From a virus, in the IMG/VR virus record IMGVR_UViG_3300021963_009201, positions 62,001 to 126,000 of that record: DNA of 64,000 nucleotides, one strand, 5' to 3'. The position numbers and the translations under genes were made by a program. Of this stretch, positions 6,001 through 63,279 are shown piece by piece (the stretch's first letter is position 1; every line of letters starts with the position of its first letter). The notes beneath the pieces were generated by a model. That model saw nothing but the letters and a program-made list of their open reading frames with translations. It was not told the origin of the DNA and made no database searches.

Positions 6001-9000
6001 GTAACATCGTTACTGACTAAGGGTATTAATGGCCCTACGCCGATAGGGATGAATCGATCCGAAGGGTACAATGAAGCTATGGCCTGGGCCTTAAAGTATA
6101 GGCGCCCATCAGGTCCGCTAAATCAAAACGGGATTTACGATCAAGCAACGGCCGATGCTGTTAGTGCATTAAAAGTTCTGGCAAATACAAGATACAAAGA
6201 CGGTATAGCCGATTCTGAATTCTTTGCAGTTCTTGGAAGTCAAATTCAGTTCTGGGGTATTACGACTGAAGCCAGTCAGAACACGAATAATGACGCGGGC
6301 TTTGCAACTAACCCATATACCTATTTGCGTTACACAAGTGAACCTAATAAGTATATGAATTTGCGGAGTGTTTCAGATTCATCTGTCCTATATAATTATG
6401 CGCAAATTTCTAATTCTAGAGAAAACTCAGATCGCATATCAGATATAATACTTATTCAGTACCCAAAAGTTTATAATTTTCAGTATGTCTCAATAGTTCC
6501 CTACCTACTTGGGGAGGGTAATGTTAATGTAGATTTTGTTGATATTAGGTTATCAAGAATTGATACTACAAGATTTACCGGCGATATGAATAATAAGGCT
6601 TGGCAGTATTATGAAATAGAAGAGCAGCCAGCTCCCGGGTTAGGTTGGACTCCCGACCTGCCAAGGATACTTTGGGCACAAACGCCAGGCGTACTGAATG
6701 AATCAGGCTTTAATTATACATCTTATGCTGTTTTAGAGTTCTTTAGTCAAGAAAATACACGACAGTACATCAAGATAATCCAAAGAGCCCTTCAGGTTAA
6801 TCCTGACGGAACCTTTGGTGCGAGCACTGCAGACGCTGCGCTAAGGTGGAAAACAAATAGGGCCTACAAGTGGGGGATCCCAATAGATAACACCTGGGGG
6901 CTTATATCTTCAGTGGAAAACATCCAAAAGTTACTTCATGTAACAGTTGATGGTTATTATGGTCCAGAAACAGAACGGGCAGTTATGGCCTGGCAAGCTA
7001 ATTGGGGCGGGGAAATACCAATAGATGGTTTCTGGGGGCCAATTACGCAAAAAGTTACGGATGAATTTTTCCAATATCTCGGTGGCTTACCTACTGTTAG
7101 AAGAATCAAGAAGCATTTACCAGAACCATATTTTGTATGGCCGCAGGATATACTCAGAGGTTACAGTAGCGCAAATGCATTAGTGAAAAATATTAATCGA
7201 TCAGGTTCAAGCGGCTCAAAAATAGACATACAAATACCCCAAAGTTCCAGGGCATTTGGTAATACGATTATTGTGGGCATATCATCTAGATCCAAGATTG
7301 CTTCTGGCAGTAATCAAGTTCAACTTGGCATCTCTGATATAACCGGCTACGGAAATGATACCGTTGGGTTCAACACTATATACGGGGGTGATGCAGTAAT
7401 AGACTATGAAGGCGTAGTTACCAAAACTTTCGATATTGTAGGCGACAGGGGTCCAATACAGCTGCAGCACGACTATAAGTCGACGGGTGCGCCAGGTTAC
7501 TTAACTGATGTAGAGTGGGGGATTGACCCGATTACCGAAGTTTCGTCAACTATCTTCCCTGGGTTTAATCCTTCCGAGGTTAGCCTATACAGAGTGGAAA
7601 GTAGTAACCCCAACGTTGAGGCTTTCATCTCAAAGGATGGAAAACTTTACCTAAGGACAGATGAAGTCATTAACAATAGTGAATCAAAATACAGTGAAGG
7701 ACAATGGCTTCCGTGTCCTCCCGATACACCTATGGATAAGGGAGAAATGGTAGCCTTTTCTTCTCGTACATCAACCTCTACAGTGATTGTAAATCCTTCG
7801 CAAAACCCCATTTACGCAATGGATGAGAATGGGAAAATGTTCCCCGGTGTGCAAACTGGCTTTGTTAGTAAGGCTGAAGGCATAAAGTTGCTTTGTGATT
7901 CTCAAGGTAGGCCAGTCGGGTTCCCCCAAGTCCCTTCCGGCGTTGGTCCCGAAGAAGCTCAAAGACACTATACGAGATTTAACCTCGATTTTTTTGTCTC
8001 GTCTACTTTTGTTCGTGTTGGTTTTTATGATAAAAAGCAAAAAGAATTCATTATTAACTCAGATGAATCCTCGATGAGTTATATTGAATATATTAATCGA
8101 GGCCCGGAGAATGTTTATATTGGCGTTGTTGCCGAGACAGAATCTATAGAGACTAAAAACTACCCGACAGTTGAAAACGGTTTTGGTCAAATACCATTTA
8201 AGTACGCAATGCCAGTTTATGGGATAACCGCAAAAAGCGCATCAAAAATAGGCATCGAACGAATTGACTCTAACTTGGGCATTTCCGATATATGGGGCAT
8301 CCCAATAAGGGCTGGTTCATTCAGCAGGGTTGTAAACGTGCCGTCAAATTCTGTGCTACCGATTTCTGGTTGGGTTTCTGAGTATCAGGGTAAAAACGTT
8401 AAAGCGTTTTATTCAGTTCCTGAGGCAAGTAAAATGGGATGGTCATCAGTATACGGTAGGCCATATATTGATGTTAAATCGGAAAATCCGACTGTTATAT
8501 CAACGGACGTGATACGTGTTAAGCAGGCTCCTATAGCTATGTTTGTTGAGCCAACACAGATTCCTTCTAATTCTGACCCCATTAAGCCAAGGTTTACTGT
8601 TTGGACGAGAAGCACCGCATATGACGAGTGGGTGCAAATATCGATGTCAGATATTGTCGACTACAATAGCTCAAATGGAACAATATATCTGAAAACTCCC
8701 TTGGCTGAAGAAGACCCAAATCTTGTAAAAGTTGACTATACATGCTTATCAAGAGTTTACGTCGCTAAAAAAATTAATGGTCAAAATGTTAATTTAAACC
8801 CTTATGTAAAATCTAGGCCAGAACTTATAGGTGTGCCGATTTACGTCTACATACTCCCAGCCTATGTTGTTAACGGTGACGGAGAGATTATTCCTGATTC
8901 GATTAATGAAGCAACCCTAAACATTGCAACGGATAATTCTATTCTAAACCAATTTAGTTCAACATATAATCCCCTAGCCCTTCATATAGGAACGGTTTTT

Positions 9001-47738: not shown

Positions 47739-47749
47739 TTTTCACCTTG

Positions 47750-47824
47750 CGCCCCCTGAGGGACTCGAACCCCCGACCTAGCGGGTAGAAACCGCTTGCT
47801 CTAATCCGGCTGAGCTAAAGGGGC
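47750..47824 (-). tRNA. tRNA-Arg (UCU)
   Basis: Full cloverleaf on the minus strand: acceptor GCCCCTT/AGGGGGC, D arm GCTC-AGCCGGATTA-GAGC, anticodon stem AGCGG/CCGCT with loop TTTCTAC (anticodon TCT at the centre), variable AGGTC, T arm GGGGG-TTCGAGT-CCCTC, discriminator G. CCA is not encoded. It decodes AGA, a codon more common in AT-rich phage genes than in many hosts. The upstream gene's TAG lies within the tRNA's 5' end. Confidence 0.95.
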
Positions 47825-48580: not shown

Positions 48581-49342
48581 TTATTTTTCACCATATACAA
48601 AGTTGTAGGCTTTTTCTATATCCTGTTCAAATAAGTCCGTCAAATGTCCGCCGCCTCTCAAAACGTAGGCGGGAGAATACGTGGGCAAAATCGGCCATGG
48701 GCCTAACCACAATATCCTTCCTCGTTCTTCGTTAATTGACATTTTGGCGGGCAAAACTGCACAAGTAGCAATTAAACCCATAGTGACTATTAACTTAGGT
48801 TTTAAAACCTGGATTTCAGAATGAAGAAATGGTATACATGATTCTATTTCTTCAATTGTATGTTTACTTTTAGACTTTTTGGAACATCTGTTCACGAAAG
48901 TCATACATATTCTACTAGAAGTAAAACCGGCTTTTGAAGCACTATTTGAAAAATACTCCATACTTAATTTATCGAAGTACGGAGTATCAGATACAAACAT
49001 GATGTCAGGGTCTGAGACATTCCAGAATGGGATTGTGGCATCTGGATTGGCATCTTTGCACTTTCTGCAGTTCTTGGTTATTACGTGAAGATCTTCAAGA
49101 GTTTTATCTACTTGCAAATCTTCAAAGCTGTAGTCCCGCAGTTCGTTTAGAACCATCTGGACATCTGCTTTGTTCAAGTATTTACTAAGAACTAAATCTA
49201 TCTTTTCAAAAAGATTAGAATCCCCGATACCAATGGGGATCCTAGTCTTTGGGCGAAAAGTGCTGGAAACATTTTTCGATAGTGCTTGAGCTACTAATTC
49301 GATTACTTCTAGTTCATCGAATTCTTCGCTTGTATCATCCAT
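48581..49342 (-). CDS. Family-4-like uracil-DNA glycosylase fold with altered catalytic motifs
   Basis: 253 residues. Four Cys (C92, C95, C153, C169; the 16-residue spacing of the last pair matches family-4 UDGs) suggest a 4Fe-4S cluster, and the C-terminal half (LKPKLIVTMGLIATCAVL, LPTYSPAYVLRGGG) follows the UDG fold. But motif 1, normally GEAPGxxE/D, reads FVSDTPYFD, and the catalytic His of the T-x-HPS/A motif is Ser (TYSPAY). It may bind uracil or modified DNA without excising, or act on another substrate. It lies next to SSB, in the DNA-repair part of the block. Confidence 0.72.
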   Translation of the reverse strand: MDDTSEEFDELEVIELVAQALSKNVSSTFRPKTRIPIGIGDSNLFEKIDLVLSKYLNKADVQMVLNELRDYSFEDLQVDKTLEDLHVITKNCRKCKDANPDATIPFWNVSDPDIMFVSDTPYFDKLSMEYFSNSASKAGFTSSRICMTFVNRCSKKSKSKHTIEEIESCIPFLHSEIQVLKPKLIVTMGLIATCAVLPAKMSINEERGRILWLGPWPILPTYSPAYVLRGGGHLTDLFEQDIEKAYNFVYGEK

Positions 49343-49761
49343 TAGAACGAGCTAGGAGCTGCGCTTTCGGTAGAGGTTGTTGCAGCCTGTGTGCCACTGG
49401 TAGTTCCTTCTGAGCGACCACGTGAGGCATAGGTGATGTTTTCTGCTACAATCACAACTTTAGATGACTTCTTATCATCTGTAGACCAACGCTCTTGTAC
49501 TAGTCTACCGATTAAGCGAATTTGACTTCCTTTAGAAAGTTTTCCGCTGCTAATCTGATTTCTTACAAATTCGCAGTTTCGTTTATTTTCTTCACTATTA
49601 AGGTAGTATGTGACATCAAAATAGCCAGTACTGTTATCGGAACCTTTTTCTGAACCTGCGTAGTCAACCGCAACACGAAACTTTGCGATGTTGTCTGTTA
49701 CCATCTCGGGGTCGGCTACGACTCCGCATGTAAGGTTAAGGTTGTTGTTTGGGTCTATCAT
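49342..49761 (-). CDS. ssb: Single-stranded DNA-binding protein
   Basis: 139 residues. OB-fold pattern: NLTCGVVADPEMVTDNIAKF with FRVAVDY, FDVTYYLNSE, LSKGSQIRLIGRLVQERW and VVIVAENITYASR, as in bacterial SSB. The Ser/Thr/Ala-rich tail ends APSSF instead of the acidic DDDIPF, so it may not recruit host SSB partners. Protects ssDNA at the phage fork. Coupled to the UDG-like gene by a one-base overlap. Confidence 0.82.
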   Translation of the reverse strand: MIDPNNNLNLTCGVVADPEMVTDNIAKFRVAVDYAGSEKGSDNSTGYFDVTYYLNSEENKRNCEFVRNQISSGKLSKGSQIRLIGRLVQERWSTDDKKSSKVVIVAENITYASRGRSEGTTSGTQAATTSTESAAPSSF

Positions 49762-49968
49762 TTAATTGCTTTCTAGTGGATTAGCTTTTACTGATCTGAG
49801 TCCGCTGGCTATTTCTTCTAGCCATTCGGCTGTTTCTATTTTTGCTTCATTTAAACCGACAAAAGTAGAAAGATGCTGGCACAAAGATATCGTCAAATGA
49901 AAAATTCCATTTTTTATTTCTTCTTTATAGTCACCAACATCTGTAGTGCTGCTTTGCTGCTCTTCCAT
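49762..49968 (-). CDS. Unknown small acidic protein
   Basis: 68 residues, helical (EIKNGIFHLTISLCQHLSTF, ETAEWLEEIASGLRSVK). Lies between MerR-like and ssb genes and overlaps the former by one base. Not recognised. Confidence 0.5.
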   Translation of the reverse strand: MEEQQSSTTDVGDYKEEIKNGIFHLTISLCQHLSTFVGLNEAKIETAEWLEEIASGLRSVKANPLESN

Positions 49969-50273
49969 TAAGCTCCTACTTTCCTCGAAAGAGCTGTGTC
50001 TATAATTCTTCCCAGCTCCCTTTTATCCTTATAACCCTTGTCATAAAGCATAGATATAATGGGTTTAGGGTCTAGAGATTTGTATGTTAATAACTGTAAG
50101 TTTAGGATATCGTTAAGGGAATAAATCCTATAGTTATTTAAATCTCTTTTAGATTCCGGATATTTTCCGGATTTTTCTCTATTAGCTATAGTTAAGGGTG
50201 TTACGTTCAATATTCTTGCTACTTCTCCACGAGTGAAGATTGGATTAGCTATAGCGCCAGATGCAATACTCAT
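49968..50273 (-). CDS. MerR-type HTH regulator
   Basis: 101 residues from ATG 50273. The N-terminal winged HTH of MerR proteins is clear: FTRGEVARILNVTPLTIANR then KRDLNNYRIYSLNDILNLQL. No metal or drug effector domain follows, only a short helical dimerisation part (KPIISMLYDKGYKDKRELGR). A 13-bp inverted repeat just upstream is the probable binding site. It likely autoregulates and controls the genes that follow (small protein, ssb, UDG-like). Confidence 0.7.
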   Translation of the reverse strand: MSIASGAIANPIFTRGEVARILNVTPLTIANREKSGKYPESKRDLNNYRIYSLNDILNLQLLTYKSLDPKPIISMLYDKGYKDKRELGRIIDTALSRKVGA

Positions 50274-50284
50274 ACAAAAACCTA

Positions 50285-50323
50285 CTTTACTATATAACAA
50301 TATACACTTTTTATATAGTAAAG
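50285..50323 (-). promoter_or_regulatory. 13-bp inverted repeat upstream of MerR-like gene
   Basis: CTTTACTATATAA (50285-50297) and TTATATAGTAAAG (50311-50323) are perfect 13-bp inverted repeats with a 13-base spacer. The minus-strand region contains TATATT/TATATA -10-like sequences within the repeat, so the element overlaps the promoter, as for MerR-type operators. It lies 12 bases before the ATG at 50273. Confidence 0.6.
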
Positions 50324-50342
50324 GTTATATACAAATATGTAA

Positions 50343-51176
50343 TCATACCGTAGAGAAACTATTGATAATTTTTACCATCATCTCTCGGGAGTTCATGCCG
50401 TAGGCATTACCTGCCTCAACGCAAAAATGGTCGAGAGTGTTACGGAATGTCGGATCTACTTCTTCGTTAAATCCTTCTCCATTCATTTGCGCTTTAGGGC
50501 TTTCCCATTTTGTTTCCAATATCTTTAAAAGAGAGAGTTTTTCCCACTCCTTAAAGTAGTACCGAACAGCGTCGGGATGGTTTGATTTAGATGCGCCAGC
50601 TGGGATCCCCCGTTGCATACAGTGGATTACCGTATCTTGGAGGTCTAGGTTCCAGCCTGAATTCCAAACCATATTATAAGCCTGCTGGACGCCTTCTGCT
50701 AGACTCCCGCAGGGCTCATAAATTTCGTGTACAGGATTGCAAAGGTTTGAGTTAAAGTATAGGTTTAAAAGTGGCAGCATAAAAACGCGGTCATCCCAAC
50801 CATACAATGGCTCATTCCTGCAATAAACACGAATTAAAACTGGATTATAGTGCTCATCAAACATCACGTAGTAAGTTGTCCAGGGTATAGGGAGATTAAA
50901 CCCCTCTACAGCGGTCCTACTATCTATAAAGTCTTTACGGGCAAACGCTAACTCTACATATTGTACAGAGGGTGGTCTTTCAAAGACTATGATACGTTGA
51001 TTATCGGAAATCCATCTTACAGCAGGAGGAAGAAAACCAAGATCTTGCCTACCGTGGCTGGTGAGACTACGGAATATATCCCCCGCAGATTTTTCTGGAA
51101 GAGGGATTGTACCGGCACTGTGGTATACACCACTTACTGTATCGGTTGATGAGTTAATTTTAAGTTCAATTTTCAT
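50343..51176 (-). CDS. E2-like protein (Prok-E2_D / PRTRC protein B type)
   Basis: 277 residues. Predicted ubiquitin-conjugating (E2/UBC-like) fold of the PRTRC-B family: FLPPAVRWI and VFERPPSVQYVEL, LPIPWTTYYVM, RVYCRNEPLYGWDDRVF, then LPLLNLYFNSNLC, which places the presumptive acceptor Cys at C146 after the LP-x-x-N strand. The C-terminal 120 residues are helical. It would accept the ubiquitin-like protein from the E1 at 59077-59859, although no biochemical data exist. The neighbour at 51173-52072 is a diverged paralogue, coupled by a four-base overlap. It ends the block before the MerR-like operator. Confidence 0.68.
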   Translation of the reverse strand: MKIELKINSSTDTVSGVYHSAGTIPLPEKSAGDIFRSLTSHGRQDLGFLPPAVRWISDNQRIIVFERPPSVQYVELAFARKDFIDSRTAVEGFNLPIPWTTYYVMFDEHYNPVLIRVYCRNEPLYGWDDRVFMLPLLNLYFNSNLCNPVHEIYEPCGSLAEGVQQAYNMVWNSGWNLDLQDTVIHCMQRGIPAGASKSNHPDAVRYYFKEWEKLSLLKILETKWESPKAQMNGEGFNEEVDPTFRNTLDHFCVEAGNAYGMNSREMMVKIINSFSTV

Positions 51177-52072
51177 TTTAATAAATCCCAGAAAAACTTA
51201 GAGAGCTCTACATGTCCGGCATCTTTAGTTCTGTCCAATAGTGCCGTATTTTTATCAAAGTAGTTTACAAGATCGCCAAATGTGCAGTCTCCAAATTGAT
51301 GAACGTCAAGTGCTCGATAAGAAAGCCCTAGAACTTCTTCCATGGATAGTTTAGCCCAAGAAGCAAAGAATTCATTTGAGTAAATGTGGCAACCCATTTC
51401 CTTTGGGAAGTATTCGGTAATCATGGTTGTAAGATCGTTATTAAAGGTATCAGTCCAAAACCCATTTATCGCATCAAGGACAAACGCAGAAAAATTATTA
51501 TATTTCTCTGGATCATTAATTGGATGGAAACTGCCCCAGCAGATCGAGGCGTCAGGGTAAATGTTGGTTACTGGCAATGCATAAAGCTGGTCCGAAAAAC
51601 TGTTTAGCGGACTAGGCCTGCAGAAAACCTTTACACTAGGTAAATGATCTTTTTCAAATCCACTGAAAAACCAGACAGTCCATGGAATATTTATATTAAA
51701 AGAGAAAGTTTCGGGGTAAGGTCTTTCGCATTCGCAACCATAGTCTGGATCACAGCTATCCCAATGTTCAAAATCTTCATCTTCTAATTCACCTTGAACA
51801 TCTTGATACTTAATAGTGCAGTTGAGTGGCGGACGCTCAACCGCTATGGTGGACATATCTCGGGAAATCCACCTAGTAACCGGCGGTAAGATGTCTGTAG
51901 AATTTTTGGTGTTTTTAAAAAAGTTCTTTGATACGTTAACCATATTGGAATTTGATTGTTCCATAATCCCGTATCTAAAGTCTACACCAAATTCTGATAT
52001 AGTTATTTCTTGTTCTATTTGTGAATTGGGTGTTTCAAGGTTTGATTCACCTGTATCAAGCGCTTGCGACAT
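51173..52072 (-). CDS. E2-like protein (Prok-E2_D / PRTRC protein B type), second copy
   Basis: 299 residues. Same plan as its neighbour: ILPPVTRWIS, VERPPLNCTIKY, NINIPWTVWFF, KVFCRPSPLNSFSDQLYALP, then VTNIYPDASICWG with candidate catalytic Cys C178. An inserted acidic, Cys-containing loop (DSCDPDYGCECERP) lies between strands and may bind a metal. The identity to the first copy is in motifs only, so the duplication is old and specialisation is likely. Both lie about 7 kb downstream of the E1/Ubl genes but in the same transcription direction. Confidence 0.7.
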   Translation of the reverse strand: MSQALDTGESNLETPNSQIEQEITISEFGVDFRYGIMEQSNSNMVNVSKNFFKNTKNSTDILPPVTRWISRDMSTIAVERPPLNCTIKYQDVQGELEDEDFEHWDSCDPDYGCECERPYPETFSFNINIPWTVWFFSGFEKDHLPSVKVFCRPSPLNSFSDQLYALPVTNIYPDASICWGSFHPINDPEKYNNFSAFVLDAINGFWTDTFNNDLTTMITEYFPKEMGCHIYSNEFFASWAKLSMEEVLGLSYRALDVHQFGDCTFGDLVNYFDKNTALLDRTKDAGHVELSKFFWDLLK

Positions 52073-53177
52073 GTTGGGTGTACACCTTACCTTCCGGTAT
52101 CTCGGTAGTCATAGGATTTGAAAAGACTTCTTTTATTCCTTTTGATTGTATTGAATCTAGGAAAATATCAAACGTCTTTTCTTTAGTTTCGTTATCGTAA
52201 AGTGATTCAACGAGTACTGTATTCGTACTTAAATCTATAAGTCGATAAACCATGTGACCAAAACCGATACGCATCGATTGAATTTCTAGGTCTTGAATGG
52301 GCAAATCGGAAGCTTCATCTGCGCATTCTACACTTGATACACTTAGCTGCATTGGTGTCCAAGTTTCTGGACTATAGTGCGAGCAGTTTTTTTGGTTTTC
52401 CCATGAACAAGGTGGGTTAAGGGAGTTTTTCTCTTTCTTTACAGACGGGCAAGCGCAACTATGCTGAAGTTTTGACTCTCGATCGAAAGTGTAATGGCTA
52501 CTTTGCGTAGTAACGAGCTCTACACTCACAGGCTTTGAGGCAGTAAAGTATTCACATGTTGGTTTTAAATTTCCGTCAACTTCAATAGCGGCACAGATAT
52601 CATTGACATCGAAGACGTCTTTCCCGGTCAGTGTGAAGCAATCAACTATGTAGGAATAGTTTATATGCTTTGCTTTTTGTCCTTTGGGCAAATATATTTC
52701 TAAAACAAGTTTTTCATTATCGTCAACATTGACTACAGCAGCACCAGATAGACTATGGTCTTCTGGTACGATAATGTCGCGTATTTCGCTAAAACAATCG
52801 TGTGCTGGCAGTACGAAAGCGTTATTGCCTTCTACATCATTTACATTGATAAATAGTCCACTACCATCTGTAAAATACTTTTCTCCGTCTGGCCCTGTAA
52901 CGATTTGGGTGCTACTAGAAAAGCCTGGTAGTGTTTGCTGTTCGTTTGTTGACTCGACATTAAAATCTTTTACAAAATCGCCACTTATAGTCGACTTTAT
53001 TAGTTGGCTCAATGTAAGGTCAAAGGAGTCTACTAGGCCCCCTGGAAGCTTCTGGGCTGCACTTACGTGCCAAGGCTGCTCGGAGTCATCTACGAGCTCC
53101 TCTGGCCCTACAGGGCCGTTTACGGGCTCGTCTGGTGTATTGCTGGTGTTTGTAAAGGTAGAAATAATGTCATCCAT
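52056..53177 (-). CDS. Unknown Cys-rich protein in conjugation-gene block
   Basis: 373 residues. N-terminal Ser/Pro-rich region (PDEPVNGPVGPEELVDDSE), then beta strands (KLVLEIYLPKGQKAKHINY, YIVDCFTLTGKDVFDVND), a Cys cluster (HSCACPS, PPCSWENQKNCSHY) probably binding a metal, and a C-terminal sheet (RIGFGHMVYRLIDLSTNTVL). Overlaps the E2-like gene start by 17 bases, which ties it to that unit. It may be a substrate or partner of conjugation; not recognised. Confidence 0.5.
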   Translation of the reverse strand: MDDIISTFTNTSNTPDEPVNGPVGPEELVDDSEQPWHVSAAQKLPGGLVDSFDLTLSQLIKSTISGDFVKDFNVESTNEQQTLPGFSSSTQIVTGPDGEKYFTDGSGLFINVNDVEGNNAFVLPAHDCFSEIRDIIVPEDHSLSGAAVVNVDDNEKLVLEIYLPKGQKAKHINYSYIVDCFTLTGKDVFDVNDICAAIEVDGNLKPTCEYFTASKPVSVELVTTQSSHYTFDRESKLQHSCACPSVKKEKNSLNPPCSWENQKNCSHYSPETWTPMQLSVSSVECADEASDLPIQDLEIQSMRIGFGHMVYRLIDLSTNTVLVESLYDNETKEKTFDIFLDSIQSKGIKEVFSNPMTTEIPEGKVYTQHVASA

Positions 53178-53178
53178 T

Positions 53179-53766
53179 TTAAGTCCAACTTAAAGAGAGT
53201 TTATCGTGGATAATAGCGTTTTGTGTTTCTAGGGTATTGCTAAGGTTGGTGAAATTTTCTTGAAGCTCTACATTGGCCTTCTTTTCTCGAATAAGGTCAG
53301 ACTGTAGAGTGGCGACAAGTTTATTCAGCCTGATTTTTTCATCATCATATCCAATGAATTCGGCGCCAAAAATTTTTGAAACACTGGTGAGACAGTAGCC
53401 GGATAGGGTTTGTTGGCTGCTGATTAGTGATTCTTGGATTTCGATTTCACTTAGGTTGGTGAGTCGATGTATCTTTATCCAATCAATAATTAGGCTTAGT
53501 TCTTGTACTGTGGTTGTTTTGATGGTATGTGCGGGGAGTATGTTGATGATTGAGCTGATGTTCATTACTTTTTCTGGAAACATTCCATAAATGTAATGTG
53601 TTTGATGTCTTTCGGTTATTTTTTCTGCTATTTTGATGTTTATTGTTCGTTGGTCTGAGTAGTATTTAAATCCCAGGAATTCAAAATAGTCTTCGTAAGA
53701 CATTGAGTGGTTTCTTAGATTTTCAATAATGACATTAGCTATTAAGAGTTGCTGCTTTTGAGACAT
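53179..53766 (-). CDS. Unknown helical protein
   Basis: 195 residues. Helices throughout with a C-terminal coiled coil (LNKLVATLQSDLIREKKANV, NFTNLSNTLETQNAII). Start overlaps the previous stop by one base. Possible scaffold; not recognised. Confidence 0.5.
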   Translation of the reverse strand: MSQKQQLLIANVIIENLRNHSMSYEDYFEFLGFKYYSDQRTINIKIAEKITERHQTHYIYGMFPEKVMNISSIINILPAHTIKTTTVQELSLIIDWIKIHRLTNLSEIEIQESLISSQQTLSGYCLTSVSKIFGAEFIGYDDEKIRLNKLVATLQSDLIREKKANVELQENFTNLSNTLETQNAIIHDKLSLSWT

Positions 53767-54961: not shown

Positions 54962-56542
54962 TTAAAAAGATGTCATAATTGGTTGCCGTTTTCCACCAGT
55001 TTTCTTTCCACCCAAGATGATCTCTGCATCTTTTAGTTGGTCGGAAGATGCCCAGTCCCATTCGGCTATTGCGCGTTTGTACATGTCGAGGACTGTTTCG
55101 CGGTGTTTGGTCCACATGCGATTTTGTTGTGTCGGTATTAACGATTCAATATCGTTTTGTTCGACTTTACGTTTGTCTTTTACTGAAATCTTAAATTTCG
55201 CTTCACGAATAAGCGCTTTTATTTCAGCGCCTGTGAATGTATCTGACTGTTCCGCAAGTGTCTGTAGGTTGAATCGTTCTGAGTCTGCGCCAAGGTGGAT
55301 TCCGAAGATGCCAATACGCTCTTCTAATGATGGGAGTCCGACAAACATGATTTTGTCAAACCTGTCAGCGCGTAACATCTCTGGGGAAATGTGTCCAATT
55401 TGATTTGCAGCTGCCATCAGTAGTACATTGTCTGGTAGTTCTTGGATGCCTGTGAGAAATTCACCATGTACACGAGATGTTGTACCGCCATCACCTTGGT
55501 AGTCTCCAACGGAGAGGTCGCGGCCAAGTTCGTCCATCCAGATTACTAGTGGGGCCATGGAGCGAATTTGAGAGAACGCTGCACGCATTCGTTTTTCTGA
55601 CTCGCCGATGAATTTATCCATCATTTGACTAATGCCGAACTTGGCGAGGTCTAGACCAAGTGTTGATGCAGTTGCTTCACATATCGCAGATTTGCCTGTA
55701 CCTGGTATTCCGACAAATAGTACGCGCCGAAGAGGCATAATATCGAGCTCTGCGGCTTCTACGGGGTTGTTCCAGGTCCAGACAACATTGTCGATGAGCT
55801 CTTTGGCGAGGTCAAGACCGCCGATGTCGTTAAGTGCAATTTTGGGGCGACGTATTTCAAGGATGCCGCCCTGTTTTACTCGATCCATTTTCCACTTAGC
55901 GATGAATTCCGGGTCGACAGTTTTACGCTCGTTTATGCTGAGCATAGAGACTTGGATAAACTCTTGCTCGGTAAGACCAAGTCCCGCTTTAACAACCTTG
56001 TTGAGATCAAGATCTTGATTGAATAGTATTTTATCTTTAGAAAAGATTGAAGCAGAAAGGAATGTTAACTCAGATTCGGTCGGGTATCCAGGATGACACA
56101 CAACAAAATGTTTTGTTAACTCAGGTGGCACTTCATCATTGCAGGAAAGCGCAATAAATTGGGTTTCAATATTTTCCAGGTTATTAGATAGCACAGCAGT
56201 GCGGTATTTGCTGTAAGCCGTGAGGAAAAGACCAATAAGTTTTTCTGCTAATTGGTGAGCATTTTCGAAAATAAAACATGCCTTAGCGTCCATTACATGG
56301 TCGATAGCCATACCTAGGTCATGAATTGGCGCCTCTTGTAAGTCGCCTGCTTCTGCACTACCTATCTCGCCAAGAATTGTCTTCCATGTGTTGTCGCGCC
56401 AAACAACTAGACCATTAACAGCGTCGAGCCTGTACACGTCTTTTGTGCTGACGCTACATATTATTTCTGTTATACGCTCAGGTTCTAGGGTGTTTACCCA
56501 GATTAGAGGGGAACCAATGCGGATGTGTTGGATCATTTCCAT
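54962..56542 (-). CDS. AAA+ ATPase, Ycf46-like
   Basis: 526 residues. N-terminal domain (about 1-160) resembles a degenerate P-loop fold (IRIGSPLIWVNTLEPERITE, ACFIFENAHQL). A classic AAA+ core follows: Walker A GIPGTGKSAI (278-287), Walker B PLVIWMDELGRDL, sensor-1 LLMAAANQIG, arginine finger LRADRFDKIMF and a helical lid (TGAEIKALIREAKFKI). This two-part plan is that of Ycf46/FtsH-like remodelling ATPases. Located in the same transcription block as the ubiquitin-like system, it could unfold conjugated substrates, but that link is inferred from position only. Confidence 0.8.
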   Translation of the reverse strand: MEMIQHIRIGSPLIWVNTLEPERITEIICSVSTKDVYRLDAVNGLVVWRDNTWKTILGEIGSAEAGDLQEAPIHDLGMAIDHVMDAKACFIFENAHQLAEKLIGLFLTAYSKYRTAVLSNNLENIETQFIALSCNDEVPPELTKHFVVCHPGYPTESELTFLSASIFSKDKILFNQDLDLNKVVKAGLGLTEQEFIQVSMLSINERKTVDPEFIAKWKMDRVKQGGILEIRRPKIALNDIGGLDLAKELIDNVVWTWNNPVEAAELDIMPLRRVLFVGIPGTGKSAICEATASTLGLDLAKFGISQMMDKFIGESEKRMRAAFSQIRSMAPLVIWMDELGRDLSVGDYQGDGGTTSRVHGEFLTGIQELPDNVLLMAAANQIGHISPEMLRADRFDKIMFVGLPSLEERIGIFGIHLGADSERFNLQTLAEQSDTFTGAEIKALIREAKFKISVKDKRKVEQNDIESLIPTQQNRMWTKHRETVLDMYKRAIAEWDWASSDQLKDAEIILGGKKTGGKRQPIMTSF

Positions 56543-58830: not shown

Positions 58831-59076
58831 TTAGCCCTTTTCGCCAGCGCGACGATGGAACTCAATGTTGTCACCAGACTGGATGACATAGTTGTCGTCC
58901 AGTTTTTCCTTACCCTTGTAAGCGTTTGCGTCGCCTGGGATGCCCCACATCGACCCAAACTGCTGACGAAGTTCAGAAACGCTCTTACCTACGTGATTAC
59001 CGGGATTGTTGTAAACACCGTAGCGGATCTGTGCTGAGCCACCGCTCTGCGATCCTGGGGATGATGCTTGCTGCAT
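58831..59076 (-). CDS. Ubiquitin-like (beta-grasp) modifier protein, PRTRC protein C-like
   Basis: 81 residues. Ser/Gly-rich N-terminus (QASSPGSQSGGSAQI), then a compact domain with RYGVYNNPGNHVGKSVSELR and the end DNYVIQSGDNIEFHRRAGEKG. A last strand followed by a short Arg-containing tail and terminal Gly is how MoaD/ThiS/ubiquitin-like modifiers end, and the ending F-x-x-x-A-G-x-K-G recalls PRTRC protein C. Start codon directly adjoins the E1 stop (no gap); the Shine-Dalgarno lies in the last E1 codons, so modifier and E1 are tightly co-translated. The Gly is already C-terminal, so no maturation cut is needed. Confidence 0.72.
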   Translation of the reverse strand: MQQASSPGSQSGGSAQIRYGVYNNPGNHVGKSVSELRQQFGSMWGIPGDANAYKGKEKLDDNYVIQSGDNIEFHRRAGEKG

Positions 59077-59859
59077 TTATGCTCCTTGGTATACTAATTC
59101 GTTAACGTTAACGCTTCGGTCAAAACTCTGGGCTAACCCGGCTTCTAAGTCAAAGAAATATTCACAATTAGAAGCCGGATCATTACCTTCAACAATGACC
59201 ATATTAAACCGTGCCAGCAATGCTGCTGTTACGGCCATATTCGTGGCAAGAAGCTGCGTCCCTCCTTCGAGTTCAGCCCTCTCTTGACACGAAAGTTCAC
59301 CAGGGTTACGGTCAGGAGGATTTACGTACTCCTCATGCCAAACCGCAGGGTGATCTACCAGCTCAATACCATCACGCTTAGCGTAGTGGTACGTAGAGCC
59401 AAAGTACTTTTCATCATTTCCGCCCAAAAATACGTCGACATTATTAATTTTAGAGGCCGCATCTATTAGCTGTTTCCTTGCTTTGAAGTTATCAACTACA
59501 GCAAAAATGATATCTTTTTCGACAATTAAGTCAGAAGCAGCTATTTTTCCTGCCGGCTTAGAGCCATCTGCTTCCTTGTCATCATCTTTTGCCCCCTCAA
59601 CTTTATCGACTACCCAATATGGCATAGGGATTATAAACGTTTTGTCAAACTGGGGGACAAGTTCTGAAGCGAGAACTTCAGCTTTATTGCCTACGCCATT
59701 AAAAAACTGACGTTGCTTATTCTTTGCTTCGAAGTTGTCACCATCAACTATGACTAGCGCTGACCCTGGCATTCTCCATTCTAGAGTCATAGCGATAGAC
59801 CTAGAAAGCAGGGAGCCAATACCGCCTGCGCCAACGATAATTACTCTGCGCTCTTCCAT
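59077..59859 (-). CDS. E1-like ThiF/MoeB-family adenylating enzyme
   Basis: 260 residues. Rossmann-type ATP site GAGGIG (10-15), then LVIVDGDNFEAKNKQRQFF with the D-x(n)-N-x-x-R-Q motif typical of E1/ThiF enzymes, and IIFAVVDNFKARK (second acidic motif). ELSCQERAELEGGTQ presents Cys C191 in the position of the E1 catalytic or crossover cysteine; TNMAVTAALL is the conserved Asn/Ala helix. It would adenylate the C-terminal Gly of the Ubl encoded next to it and form a thioester. An acidic 20-residue loop (DDDKEADGSKPAG) is inserted after residue 90. Overlaps the zinc-protein gene by one base. Confidence 0.88.
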   Translation of the reverse strand: MEERRVIIVGAGGIGSLLSRSIAMTLEWRMPGSALVIVDGDNFEAKNKQRQFFNGVGNKAEVLASELVPQFDKTFIIPMPYWVVDKVEGAKDDDKEADGSKPAGKIAASDLIVEKDIIFAVVDNFKARKQLIDAASKINNVDVFLGGNDEKYFGSTYHYAKRDGIELVDHPAVWHEEYVNPPDRNPGELSCQERAELEGGTQLLATNMAVTAALLARFNMVIVEGNDPASNCEYFFDLEAGLAQSFDRSVNVNELVYQGA

Positions 59860-60431
59860 TAAAACTCCTCGTAATTTATGTGAATATAGTCATTTGTTGC
59901 TGCTGACGACAAACTTTGAATGACTAATTCATCTTGGTAATAATCTTCACATACTGTAATACCTGCACTGATTTTAGGGTTCTTTATGTAATGAATTACA
60001 AAATTACGCAAGGGTTTGCAGTATTCAGTGTATTGGTACGAGCATGTAAAGCAGTCATTGGAAAATGAGTCTTGATACACGTTTTCCCAAATATCTTGAG
60101 GGACTTCTTCTGTATCATCCCAGCTCACTGGGTATGAACATGTGCAATCCATCATAGACTCTTCGCAGCAAATCATTAAAGGATCACTTGATGCGTAAAA
60201 GTCTTTAATCTGTTCTATAACAACTGTTGGTGCAGTAGCAACAAAAAGATCCCAGTCTTCTTCAGTAAAACCAACGCCACACGATTCGCATGAGTGTTCG
60301 TTAAATTCGACTAGATCTTTGCAGTTGGGATTCAAACATTCAACTAGTAGAGCACTCTCGTTATGGGAGCTTGATGCTATATCTATATTGCAGTAGGGAC
60401 AATTGGGAAGATCTTCTTCCATTTCACTCAA
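59859..60431 (-). CDS. Cys-rich zinc-finger protein of the conjugation operon
   Basis: 190 residues, acidic. Zinc knuckles: NCPYCNIDI and VECLNPNCKDL, then CESCGVGF, followed by a second region with ICCEESMMDCTCSY and FSNDCFTCSYQYTEYC. Thus two or three treble-clef or ribbon modules are likely. Co-translated with E1 (TAATG). Such proteins next to E1/E2 genes are candidate E3-like adaptors or substrates. Not assigned to a family. Confidence 0.62.
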   Translation of the reverse strand: MSEMEEDLPNCPYCNIDIASSSHNESALLVECLNPNCKDLVEFNEHSCESCGVGFTEEDWDLFVATAPTVVIEQIKDFYASSDPLMICCEESMMDCTCSYPVSWDDTEEVPQDIWENVYQDSFSNDCFTCSYQYTEYCKPLRNFVIHYIKNPKISAGITVCEDYYQDELVIQSLSSAATNDYIHINYEEF

Positions 60432-60481: not shown

Positions 60482-61753
60482 TCAGCCTTTTCCCAGCGCA
60501 TCACCGACTTTATCTGCTGCGCAGTAAAGTTCGAGTTTATCTTGAGAGTTGTTTTTGGTCCATAAGTATATTGGTTTTTGAACGCTTCGTTCTATGTCGA
60601 TGTCGTTGGAAAACAGCCCCATTGCTTTGCGGTGTGCTACTACATTGGGTACAGTTTCGTTATCGAACATAATATACTGATGACAGGACAGGCATCGACG
60701 CTTATCTTTGTCTACTTTGACAAACTTCACGGAACAAAACGGACAATGTGTATCGTTTTCGCTGATGCAGGCGATAATAATATTATCTTTGATAGGGGGA
60801 AAATCTTCAGGAAGCGTAACTTCTTTAGCTTGAGGTACAGTGCTGTAGCCTGTAGTTGAAGTTCCACCCGCACCGTACCCGTAGGAATAGTCGGTATAAC
60901 CGTATGAGCCAACGCCAGTTTTTCCGTTAGCTGTAGGTGTGTATACTTTCTTGGAAACTTTACCCATCCATACATCAATATCTGGCGAAGGGTCAGATTT
61001 TGGGAATGAATCAAATACCTGCCCTGGGTCAAGAGAAAATACTCCACCAGGAGTTTGTAACTCAATATGGTATTCTGTAGCATTATTGTTAATATTCTTC
61101 CGCCAACCATAGGTTATATGAATACCCGGAAAATCTGCCTGATCTTTATGGTCAGTGCCGGAAGCAAATGCTGGCATGTTTGGGTGGCTGTGAGCGGAGC
61201 CGACTAGGTAGACATGTTCCGGCTTCTCTTTAGCTATAGACTCGTGGTCATAAGCACAGTCAGCCGCCGTGTTTGTTTGGTCGGGAACTAAAACTCCCCA
61301 TCCGTCGCCTTCGTTTTCGAGACCAAAAAAGTTTGGATCATAAGTAAGGAGTACTATCGACTCGGTGCCGTGCTTGTCTTCGACAGCCCTAAAGAAATCG
61401 TCCATTTTTTGAACCATTTCATAAGGAATTCTAGGAAGCGTATACTCTGCGCTAGTAGAAAGAGTTTCCAAGTTAAGTTCTTGTTCTGTTGCTACAGTAA
61501 CAGAACGGGAAATAATAGTGGAGACAACTTTGAAAATTGTCGGCCTTGTACTAGTCTTGGTCGTCTTATTAGTGTCTGTATAGCTATATTCTTCTACCGT
61601 CATTAAGTAGTAGAAGTTATAGCCATGGGCTTCAATATGTTGGCAAATATCATCTACATTTCCAACGAAGCATGGCATTCCATTTGGTAGGTCAAAATAA
61701 GTTAATTCTTCCAGCGGAATTAACTCAAACTTATCTTCTGATACTTCTGTCAT
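60482..61753 (-). CDS. JAB/JAMM-domain isopeptidase with zinc ribbon
   Basis: 423 residues. The JAMM motif is intact: HSH (188-190), P-N-M-P-A-F-A (x7), S198-x-x-D201, with E131 (ESIVLLTYDP) a candidate for the remote Glu. It would hydrolyse Ubl-protein isopeptide bonds. The N-terminal 110 residues form a separate alpha/beta domain (PLEELTYFDLPNGMPCFVGN). A linker rich in Gly/Tyr (GTSTTGYS) leads to a C-terminal zinc ribbon HCPFCSVKF...RRCLSCHQY (about 330-365). Lies between the zinc protein and the E2-zinc fusion. PRTRC protein A is a comparable JAB-containing neighbour of ThiF. Confidence 0.85.
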   Translation of the reverse strand: MTEVSEDKFELIPLEELTYFDLPNGMPCFVGNVDDICQHIEAHGYNFYYLMTVEEYSYTDTNKTTKTSTRPTIFKVVSTIISRSVTVATEQELNLETLSTSAEYTLPRIPYEMVQKMDDFFRAVEDKHGTESIVLLTYDPNFFGLENEGDGWGVLVPDQTNTAADCAYDHESIAKEKPEHVYLVGSAHSHPNMPAFASGTDHKDQADFPGIHITYGWRKNINNNATEYHIELQTPGGVFSLDPGQVFDSFPKSDPSPDIDVWMGKVSKKVYTPTANGKTGVGSYGYTDYSYGYGAGGTSTTGYSTVPQAKEVTLPEDFPPIKDNIIIACISENDTHCPFCSVKFVKVDKDKRRCLSCHQYIMFDNETVPNVVAHRKAMGLFSNDIDIERSVQKPIYLWTKNNSQDKLELYCAADKVGDALGKG

Positions 61754-61776: not shown

Positions 61777-63279
61777 TTAAGAAAGTACTAGTTTTGCGTA
61801 GCAGCTTTTGCAAACTGGCTGCGAATAGTTATCGTCTAAATATTGAATATTTTCTTTATAAACAAGAGATTTACATTGGCAAATAGAGTATTCTGTTACG
61901 CAGTCTGAGCAAAGTTTAGCTAAAGACATTTCCTGGGTAAAAGGATCAAGGTGTTCAATCAGGGCAAGATCCTCGACTGCTGTAGGGTATGAACAGTTAG
62001 AGCAATGCTCAACTTTGGTACAAGCTACGCACATATCGTTACTGATTAACGATTCTTCATCTTCATGAAAACTATAACATTTCTGACACTGAAACAAAGT
62101 CACACATGAAGAGCAGTGAAAGTTTTCATTGTAAAAAGCCATGTCGGCATAATGCTTATGAGTGTCACATGAAACGCAAATAGCTAATTTTTCTTCTGCG
62201 CACCAAGTGCATGCATAACCGTTTTCAAAGCTTATAACATTTGAAGACCCATAGATTTCTCCGCAAAGTTTGCACGACGTAATGTGATCAGAAAACGGTA
62301 TAAGCGGCTTATGTTCTTCTGCTGTTTTTATCGTTTTGCTTTCAGCACTCCTAAAAGCGCTTTGAATCTTAGTCAATACATCTTTATTTGACGGAGGCTC
62401 AAGATCTTCTCGAATAAACTTTTGATAATTTTTTGGAGTATTTTGATCTCCGTAATATGCGCGGTACTTGCCATCTACCGCCATTCTCAATGTGTAGTAA
62501 GAACCATCTTCACCATCGTAGTGCTTCGTCTGATCATCAATATCTTTTACAATGACGGGAATCCAAAGGCTACCATCTAGGGTCCAATCAGCGCCTTCTT
62601 GGGATGATTTACCTTCCCAAGCCTCAGGGTCCCAGAGGTAATTATATTCGATATTGTTTTCATATTTCTCGGCGTAAAAACGTGGGCCATCTGTTTCTTT
62701 CATGTTGGCGTCATTATATGCTTCAGTGCCGCCAGCGCGCTCAACGAGATTTGCTATTTTTTGACCAAGGTTCAAGTGTGATATAGATGGTTTATTGTGA
62801 TAAAGACATATCCAGCCGACACCATTACCGTTGCCATAGCCTTTGCAATTTAAGTTTGGCAAGTTCACATGAAATAAAACTTGATCAAGACTAGTTATAG
62901 GTGTCGGAGAGTAAAAGTGTCTAGCACCAAAAAATTCATTATCAACAAAATCGCCAATTACAATACGATACGGCATTGCAAGGTCGTAGTGGACGGCTTC
63001 GGTATCCCCTTCGGAACCGCCCCATATGACCCTATATACGCCTGGAGTATGCTGAAATACTACCTGACAATGCCCAAGGGCTTGACGGATCATTAACGTG
63101 CCCGATCCGTCAAGCGGCAATATCCCGGTATCAAAAAATGCTATATCACTTATTGACTTAAAAACAGCATTCAACTCTTTTGTTTCAGTATTTTCTATAT
63201 TACCGACAACAATAGAATTTTTAACTCCCTGATCACTTAATTCAATAAAGGAACCTATTTTTGGGTCAACATATGACAT
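61777..63279 (-). CDS. E2-like domain with long C-terminal zinc-finger array
   Basis: 500 residues. N-terminal E2-like part: FFDTGILPLDGSG, CQVVFQHTPGVYRVIW, AMPYRIVIGDF, ARHFYSPTPITSLDQVLFHV then NLPNLN and GVGWICLYHN, which parallels PRTRC-B/Prok-E2_D proteins, with C158 the presumptive acceptor. After a region of about 150 residues come at least seven CxxC pairs (TSCKLCGEI, ACTWCAEEK, CVSCDTHKH, HCSSCVTL, QCQKCYSF, CVACTKVEHCSNC, LCSDCVTE, SICQCKS, VCKSCYAK) at about 328-498, as in RING/LIM-type treble clefs. A fused E2-E3-like enzyme is the simplest reading. Gene heads the E2-JAB-zinc-E1-Ubl set. Confidence 0.72.
   Translation of the reverse strand: MSYVDPKIGSFIELSDQGVKNSIVVGNIENTETKELNAVFKSISDIAFFDTGILPLDGSGTLMIRQALGHCQVVFQHTPGVYRVIWGGSEGDTEAVHYDLAMPYRIVIGDFVDNEFFGARHFYSPTPITSLDQVLFHVNLPNLNCKGYGNGNGVGWICLYHNKPSISHLNLGQKIANLVERAGGTEAYNDANMKETDGPRFYAEKYENNIEYNYLWDPEAWEGKSSQEGADWTLDGSLWIPVIVKDIDDQTKHYDGEDGSYYTLRMAVDGKYRAYYGDQNTPKNYQKFIREDLEPPSNKDVLTKIQSAFRSAESKTIKTAEEHKPLIPFSDHITSCKLCGEIYGSSNVISFENGYACTWCAEEKLAICVSCDTHKHYADMAFYNENFHCSSCVTLFQCQKCYSFHEDEESLISNDMCVACTKVEHCSNCSYPTAVEDLALIEHLDPFTQEMSLAKLCSDCVTEYSICQCKSLVYKENIQYLDDNYSQPVCKSCYAKLVLS

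Follow-up and report, generated by a model that had tools for sequence, protein, structure and literature searches.

To our knowledge, ubiquitin-like (Ubl) conjugation in bacteria is known mostly from defence operons, in which one E1 is accompanied by one E2. PRTRC-like cassettes and prokaryotic E2s are already known, from NCBIfam names and from Iyer et al. 2006, whose account of operon type 6d lists a Ub-like protein with a C-terminal Gly, a JAB protein, an E1-like protein and one E2-like protein with a conserved Cys, in which a downstream His is absolutely conserved (PMC1779556). No phage E1-E2 cassette is described in that account of type 6d. The phage genes analysed here have in common with it the Gly-ended Ubl, the JAB, the E1-like protein and E2-like proteins with a Cys, while the downstream His is not conserved in our E2 alignments.

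The window, by which we mean the whole 64,000-nucleotide stretch analysed, runs from base 62001 to base 126000 of a virus record 190,033 bp long (G000); its proteins have matches in phage families of DnaB-like helicase, ribonucleotide reductase and virion structural proteins. Proteins of the actinobacterial WhiB family are encoded in G000 as well as in the records G001, G002 and L060, with a WhiB-like pattern in many other loci, which suggests that the phage hosts are Actinobacteria. The genes under study, with their predicted products, are as follows:

50343-51176, minus strand: E2a, 277-aa predicted conjugating enzyme, diverged and Prok-E2_D-like; Cys146 codon at 50739-50741, Asn138 eight residues upstream
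51173-52072, minus strand: E2b, 299-aa predicted conjugating enzyme, diverged and Prok-E2_D-like; Cys178 codon at 51539-51541, Asn170
52056-53177, minus strand: P3, fast-evolving 373-aa protein; the last 17 bp of its gene overlap the start of E2b
54962-56542, minus strand: AAA ATPase of CDC48/PAN-like type, encoded within this run of genes (PF00004 3.8e-25, TIGR01243 5.1e-36)
58831-59076, minus strand: Ubl1, predicted 81-aa ubiquitin-like modifier with C-terminal HRRAGEKG
59077-59859, minus strand: E1, ThiF-family activating enzyme (PF00899 E 1.9e-10) with GAGGIG, VVDN and the catalytic-type Cys191 in GELSCQER
59859-60431, minus strand: Cys-rich Zn-binding protein, a homologue of the C-terminal region that JAB has in 14 of 17 phage loci (hhalign E 4.8e-11)
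60482-61753, minus strand: predicted JAB/JAMM isopeptidase with the motif HSHPNMPAFASGTD (PF14464 E 9.7e-5)
61777-63279, minus strand: E2c, 500-aa protein whose N-terminal half is E2-like (LPN...GWICLY) and whose tail of repeated CxxC resembles zinc fingers; Cys158 codon at 62806-62808

The original prediction had singled out the two neighbouring proteins of 277 and 299 residues for their common motifs and assigned them to the pattern of PRTRC protein B/Prok-E2_D. All these motifs are present as quoted, in the pairs LPPAVRWIS/LPPVTRWIS (LPPxxRWI), FERPP/VERPP (ERPP), PIPW/NIPW (PW) and PL..D..LP..N, together with C146 and C178. BLASTP aligns E2a with E2b at E 1e-19, with 23% identity over 258 aa, and both are sisters with support of 98/96 in a tree which has long branches and predates the wider locus set described below; judged by their sequences, they are tandem paralogues. 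In the window the end of E2b and the start of E2a overlap by 4 bp (ATGA). The Gly that follows the catalytic Cys, near-universal in E2-D proteins, is lost in E2a (CNP/CRP/CTP).

Single-sequence searches placed these proteins poorly. Against PF14460 (Prok-E2_D) E2b scored 16.4 bits and its orthologues in G002 and L060 21.5 and 16.7 bits, all under the gathering cut-off of 25, and neither E2a nor its L060 counterpart gave a match to that family. None of ten window proteins scanned matched NCBIfam TIGR03737 (PRTRC protein B), PHROGs had no family for E2a, E2b or E2c, and the PADLOC defence models matched none of the three. Searches with E2a and E2b by tblastn against 50,697 phage records and by single-sequence scans of IMG/VR found nothing, and no E2 was found in PDB sequence searches. 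The sole match of E2b in tblastn against plasmids, at E=3, was a Nostoc plasmid protein that is itself Prok-E2_D at E 8e-46 and sits in a cluster with JAB and ThiF. Starting from this match we gathered a reference set of 13 plasmid E2-D/PRTRC-B proteins of Cyanobacteria, Proteobacteria, Bacillus and Chloroflexota.

Against this set, hhalign with a profile of E2a, E2b and their two orthologues gave E 5.8e-10. None of 200 column-shuffled profiles did as well, the reversed profile came nowhere near, and eight other families used as decoys reached E 0.072 at best; these controls rule out that E2a and E2b are chance motif look-alikes. Profiles of the enlarged families (E2A and E2B, in capitals) matched E2-D at E 3.9e-9 and 1.4e-6, respectively. 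In the joint alignment with the plasmid proteins one Cys is common to 19 of 19 sequences, with an Asn seven or eight residues upstream, and the His of the HPN motif of classical eukaryotic-type E2s is absent at that place from E2a, E2b and plasmid E2-D, E2c having LPN. Hence the assignment to PRTRC protein B/Prok-E2_D holds, with the formal cut-offs not reached: single-sequence Pfam search returned 16.4 bits for one protein and nothing for the other, while profile-profile comparison was significant and supports E2a and E2b as diverged relatives of that family with the putative catalytic Cys kept. An AF2 model of E2b had a mean pLDDT of 53 (70-78 in the core). With this low-confidence model Foldseek found no PDB match at E under 1.4, unrelated spike proteins ranking top; in a second structural look against 504 chains, all 50 matches listed were E2 enzymes by title, at Z 3.8-4.8, values so low that we give the model no more than a supporting role.

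The third protein that had been proposed as E2-like, E2c, is most likely related, on weaker evidence. The family profile of its 17 orthologues matched the combined E2a+E2b+E2-D profile at E 2.9e-7 (prob 93), and the N-terminal 330 residues of E2c matched it at E 1.2e-5, as none of 200 shuffles did. Since plasmid E2-D alone gives just E 3e-4 (prob 38), we regard membership of E2c in the same superfamily as probable, not proven. The alignment pairs E2c LPN with TN of E2b and C158 (GWICLY), kept in 17/17 phage loci, with the catalytic Cys; C158 replaces C145, earlier taken as the equivalent residue. E2c and E2b did not align significantly in BLASTP, an hmmsearch started from the E2C profile matched E2C only, and the AF2 model of E2c (mean pLDDT 33) was unusable. 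The C-terminal half is a run of CxxC pairs. In two close relatives a fourth E2-D-like paralogue, E2d, was detected (L006 1574-2275, L007 1499-2272; E 5e-9 against the combined profile), which was not found in the window's own record.

The presence of one E1 and one Ubl, also part of the original prediction, stood for the E1 and was less certain for the modifier. A single ThiF match occurs in the whole 190-kb record, and one Ubl is PRTRC-C-like: Ubl1 aligned with PRTRC-C/phage Prok_Ub at E 4e-4 (0/100 shuffles) and has the AGxKG tail in common with them. Just outside the window lies a second beta-grasp candidate, Ubl2, with internal PGG/PSG and a short tail (L008 12336-12605, in G000), so the count of one Ubl applies to the window and may be too low for the phage. 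Ubl2 has copies in two relatives (L006 823-1092, L007 789-1061) and a weak ThiS likeness (PF02597 E 0.055 in L006); a comparison with PRTRC C, equalled by 59 of 100 shuffles, revealed no relation, and the 22 remaining loci with an E1, which extend at most about 10 kb to either side of it, contained no match. Tblastn of E1 against the 50,697 phage records gave no match. In the PADLOC scan JAB reached E 0.042 and E1 was weakly similar to E1-E2 models (best 5.6e-4), and scores stayed under the NCBIfam PRTRC equivalog cut-offs (14.3 of 101.8 bits for PRTRC_A, 22.4 of 144.75 for ThiF). PRTRC-type signatures are nevertheless there, the E1 SC motif column in 13/13 sequences including plasmid PRTRC ThiF and the JAMM in 7/7. 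Among ten proteins scanned there was no sulfur-transfer gene, and P3 had no significant family match in Pfam, PHROGs or NCBIfam. P3 and the 559-aa gp197 of Bacillus phage KLEB27-3 were considered as relatives of the protein upstream of plasmid E2-D genes, and profile comparison showed no relation. A tRNA-Arg(TCT) gene lies at window positions 47749-47824.

Scans of IMG/VR with aligned E1 sequences yielded 37 loci. The 13 loci L080-L092, whose ThiF is distant, were excluded for lack of any match to E2A, E2B or E2C, and 24 were kept, with E1 identity of 52-88% and contigs of up to 267,766 bp. Of these 24, 23 have E2C (the exception, L062, begins too near E1 to include it) and 20 have E2A and E2B; the remaining four stop short of them. 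After removal of eight near-duplicates sharing more than half of their 21-mers (L061, L062, L066, L068, L073, L074, L076 and L078), the final set consisted of 16 loci and the window, 17 in all; E2A and E2B were counted in 13, since L006, L070, L071 and L079 end before that place. L072 and L077, both on the one 267,766-bp contig (IMGVR_UViG_3300042868_009074), were counted as two loci; this contig carries two diverged copies of the whole cassette, either through genuine duplication or because two phages were joined in assembly.

The triad is not private to the contig studied, as could have been the case, but recurs in the related phages, in all loci long enough. Gene order is constant where covered (E2C, JAB, E1, Ubl1, AAA, E2B, E2A), the AAA ATPase is present in every locus covering its place, E2B adjoins E2A in every covering locus, and the pair is retained together in 13/13 distinct loci. 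The Zn protein is fused to JAB in 14 of the 17 phage loci. The Cys residues named at the outset are not missing from close homologues: C146 occurs in all 13 E2A and C178 in all 13 E2B sequences, no other Cys column reaching 80% in either family, and the Asn of the -8 column (Asn138, Asn170) is likewise kept in 13/13 each. The E1 Cys in SCQ(E/Q/D)R, the JAMM pattern and the Ubl1 C-terminus HRRAGEKG are each found in 17/17.

Sequence conservation differs greatly among the seven proteins. Mean identity over the 13 loci was 69% for E1 and Ubl1, 57% for AAA, 55% for E2C, 45% for JAB, 30% for E2A and 26% for E2B, so the tandem E2s change fastest of the seven, and E1 and Ubl1 are well conserved. Between the window phage and G002 identity was 86% for E1, 60% for E2a and 40% for E2b; it was lower still for P3 (36%) and for a 195-aa protein (53179-53766; 25%), both among the most variable of 27 gene pairs. 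As dS was saturated for most genes in the two closest phages, dN/dS was left aside.

We consider it likely that the phage has a PRTRC-like cassette in which a single Ubl and a single E1 supply three active E2s. The phage would thus encode its own system of ubiquitin-like conjugation: Ubl1, ending in a free Gly (AGEKG), would be adenylated at that Gly by the ThiF-type E1 and then taken onto the conserved Cys191; E2a Cys146, E2b Cys178 and E2c Cys158 would bind it as a thioester and hand it on to acceptor proteins, and the JAB protein would take it off again. Partner recruitment or an E3-like activity is the probable role of the Cys-rich tails, one at the C-terminus of E2c and the other in the Zn protein, which relatives carry joined to JAB. 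With the chemistry of ThiF-type E1, E2 and JAMM proteins known and the residues intact, activation of Ubl1, thioester transfer, conjugation and removal make up the most economical reading of what is observed, namely homology, intact active-site residues, gene set, gene order and conservation across phages; from these we infer the thioester chemistry, the conjugation, the identity of targets and the division of labour among the E2s. E2a and E2b may be substrate-facing, which would explain their fast divergence against near-constant E1 and Ubl1. The three E2s may serve different targets, several kinds of protein being tagged in infection; a complex of E2b with E2a, their action in series, or a split by modifier (Ubl1 versus Ubl2) could equally account for their number. 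The AAA ATPase may possibly act as an unfoldase for modified proteins.

The constant adjacency of the tandem genes, their 4-bp overlap in the window, their sister position in the tree (98/96) and joint retention in 13/13 distinct loci, together with the altered motif directly after the E2a Cys, would all suit an obligate E2b:E2a pair, in which one partner carries Ubl1, and the second holds the acceptor in place and either makes Ubl1-Ubl1 chains or limits the range of targets. The eukaryotic model of an E2 with a helper E2 variant is Ubc13-Mms2, and Mms2-type helpers lose the catalytic Cys, but here it is kept in 13/13 of both families; we hold an obligate pair to be possible, though somewhat unlikely. 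If true, the phage would have two functional conjugating units, E2b:E2a and E2c, and not three independent E2s. The same invariant Cys, with the Asn at -8, both among the few invariant residues in 13/13 of each family, makes it very improbable that the two proteins are degenerate RWD-like scaffolds of E2 fold that have lost catalysis, as their very low sequence conservation and sub-threshold Pfam score might suggest. A wider picture is rather doubtful in our opinion: phages of about 200 kb, probably of Actinobacteria, would possess a Ubl system of eukaryotic layout, with an invariant-tail modifier, one E1, a chain-building or targeting E2b:E2a pair, an E2-zinc-finger protein serving as E2 and E3 in one, a deconjugase and, for the tagged proteins, an AAA unfoldase of CDC48-like type, the E2s being the variable, target-facing part.

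Two other readings concern what the cassette is for. A sulfur carrier or thiolation pathway (ThiS/MoaD-like), whose E2-like proteins accept thiocarboxylate sulfur and are not conjugators, would fit the resemblance of E1 to ThiF/MoeB and the weak likeness of Ubl2 to ThiS (PF02597, in L006), but an intact JAMM isopeptidase stands alongside in 17/17 loci, there are three E2-type catalytic centres, and the ten proteins scanned included no sulfur-transfer gene, so we give this pathway little credence. Counter-defence, with Ubl1 put on host defence proteins or host Ubl systems, or competing with them, and E2 divergence reflecting an arms race, is a view of purpose and therefore compatible with the conjugation mechanism. 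It agrees with E2A and E2B being the least conserved of the seven cassette proteins (30 and 26%, against 69% for E1); but the E2s match no defence families, fast divergence fits relaxed constraint equally well, and related cassettes reside on plasmids with no known link to defence. We consider this purpose unlikely, though less so than sulfur transfer. In this phage lineage three E2s accompany one E1 wherever a locus allows the count, the modifier tail is invariant and the tandem E2s diverge fast. E2 specialisation can thus be put to the test in a small bacterial system, and the question arises what the virus tags, and why.

Of the known systems, the cultured Bacillus phage vB_BauM_KLEB27-3 (OM634661) is like the window phage in carrying ThiF, JAB (annotated with a PRTRC_A domain) and a Ubl with the AGxKG tail in gp194-gp199, so that a phage-borne version is already partly annotated. 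Its E2-D-like, JAB, ThiF and four-repeat Prok_Ub genes are close together, gp196 being the E2-D-like one (hhalign E 4e-13 against the combined profile). It differs in having a single E2, with one match in the whole record, and in its Ubl, a four-repeat polyprotein (PF14454). The latter, gp199 (L053 2074-2781), annotated as hypothetical, consists of four tandem Prok_Ub repeats each ending in KAGVKG, polyubiquitin-like, near E2, JAB and ThiF. An unannotated 15.8-kb human faecal scaffold named 'Bacteriophage sp.' (MT835919, L054) likewise bears JAB, ThiF and E2-D-like genes at 7-924, 885-1682 and 6445-7140. On a Bacillus halotolerans plasmid (L017 158-5495) uracil-DNA glycosylase, MerR, ThiF and E2-D genes occur together, and in the window phage the uracil-DNA glycosylase, MerR and E2 genes are also together, at 48581-52072.

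No report of a multi-E2 phage cassette was found in our literature search, and as most subscription journals and preprints lie outside its coverage, absence from print is not claimed. As far as the searches show, what looks new is that a phage lineage conserves a set of three E2s, with scores under the Pfam cut-off. One plasmid does have two E2-D genes: pSEA2 of Vibrio alfacsensis (NZ_AP019851) resembles the phage in carrying two E2-D-like genes (L055 6555-7283 and 10632-11360) beside one PRTRC C and one ThiF, but these are plasmid-borne and split by other genes, and no third E2 was seen. With Prok-E2_D (PF14460)/PRTRC protein B (TIGR03737), of which NIES25_69080 of Nostoc linckia NIES-25 plasmid2 (L004) and WP_027196672.1 of Paraburkholderia sprentiae (L018) are examples, the window E2a and E2b have in common profile homology over about 130 columns, the P..N(8)C active-site block, the absence of the HPN His and the neighbourhood of JAB, ThiF and a small Ubl. 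They differ in falling under the curated cut-offs, in the long extensions of most phage orthologues and in standing as two tandem copies accompanied by a third, Zn-tailed E2.
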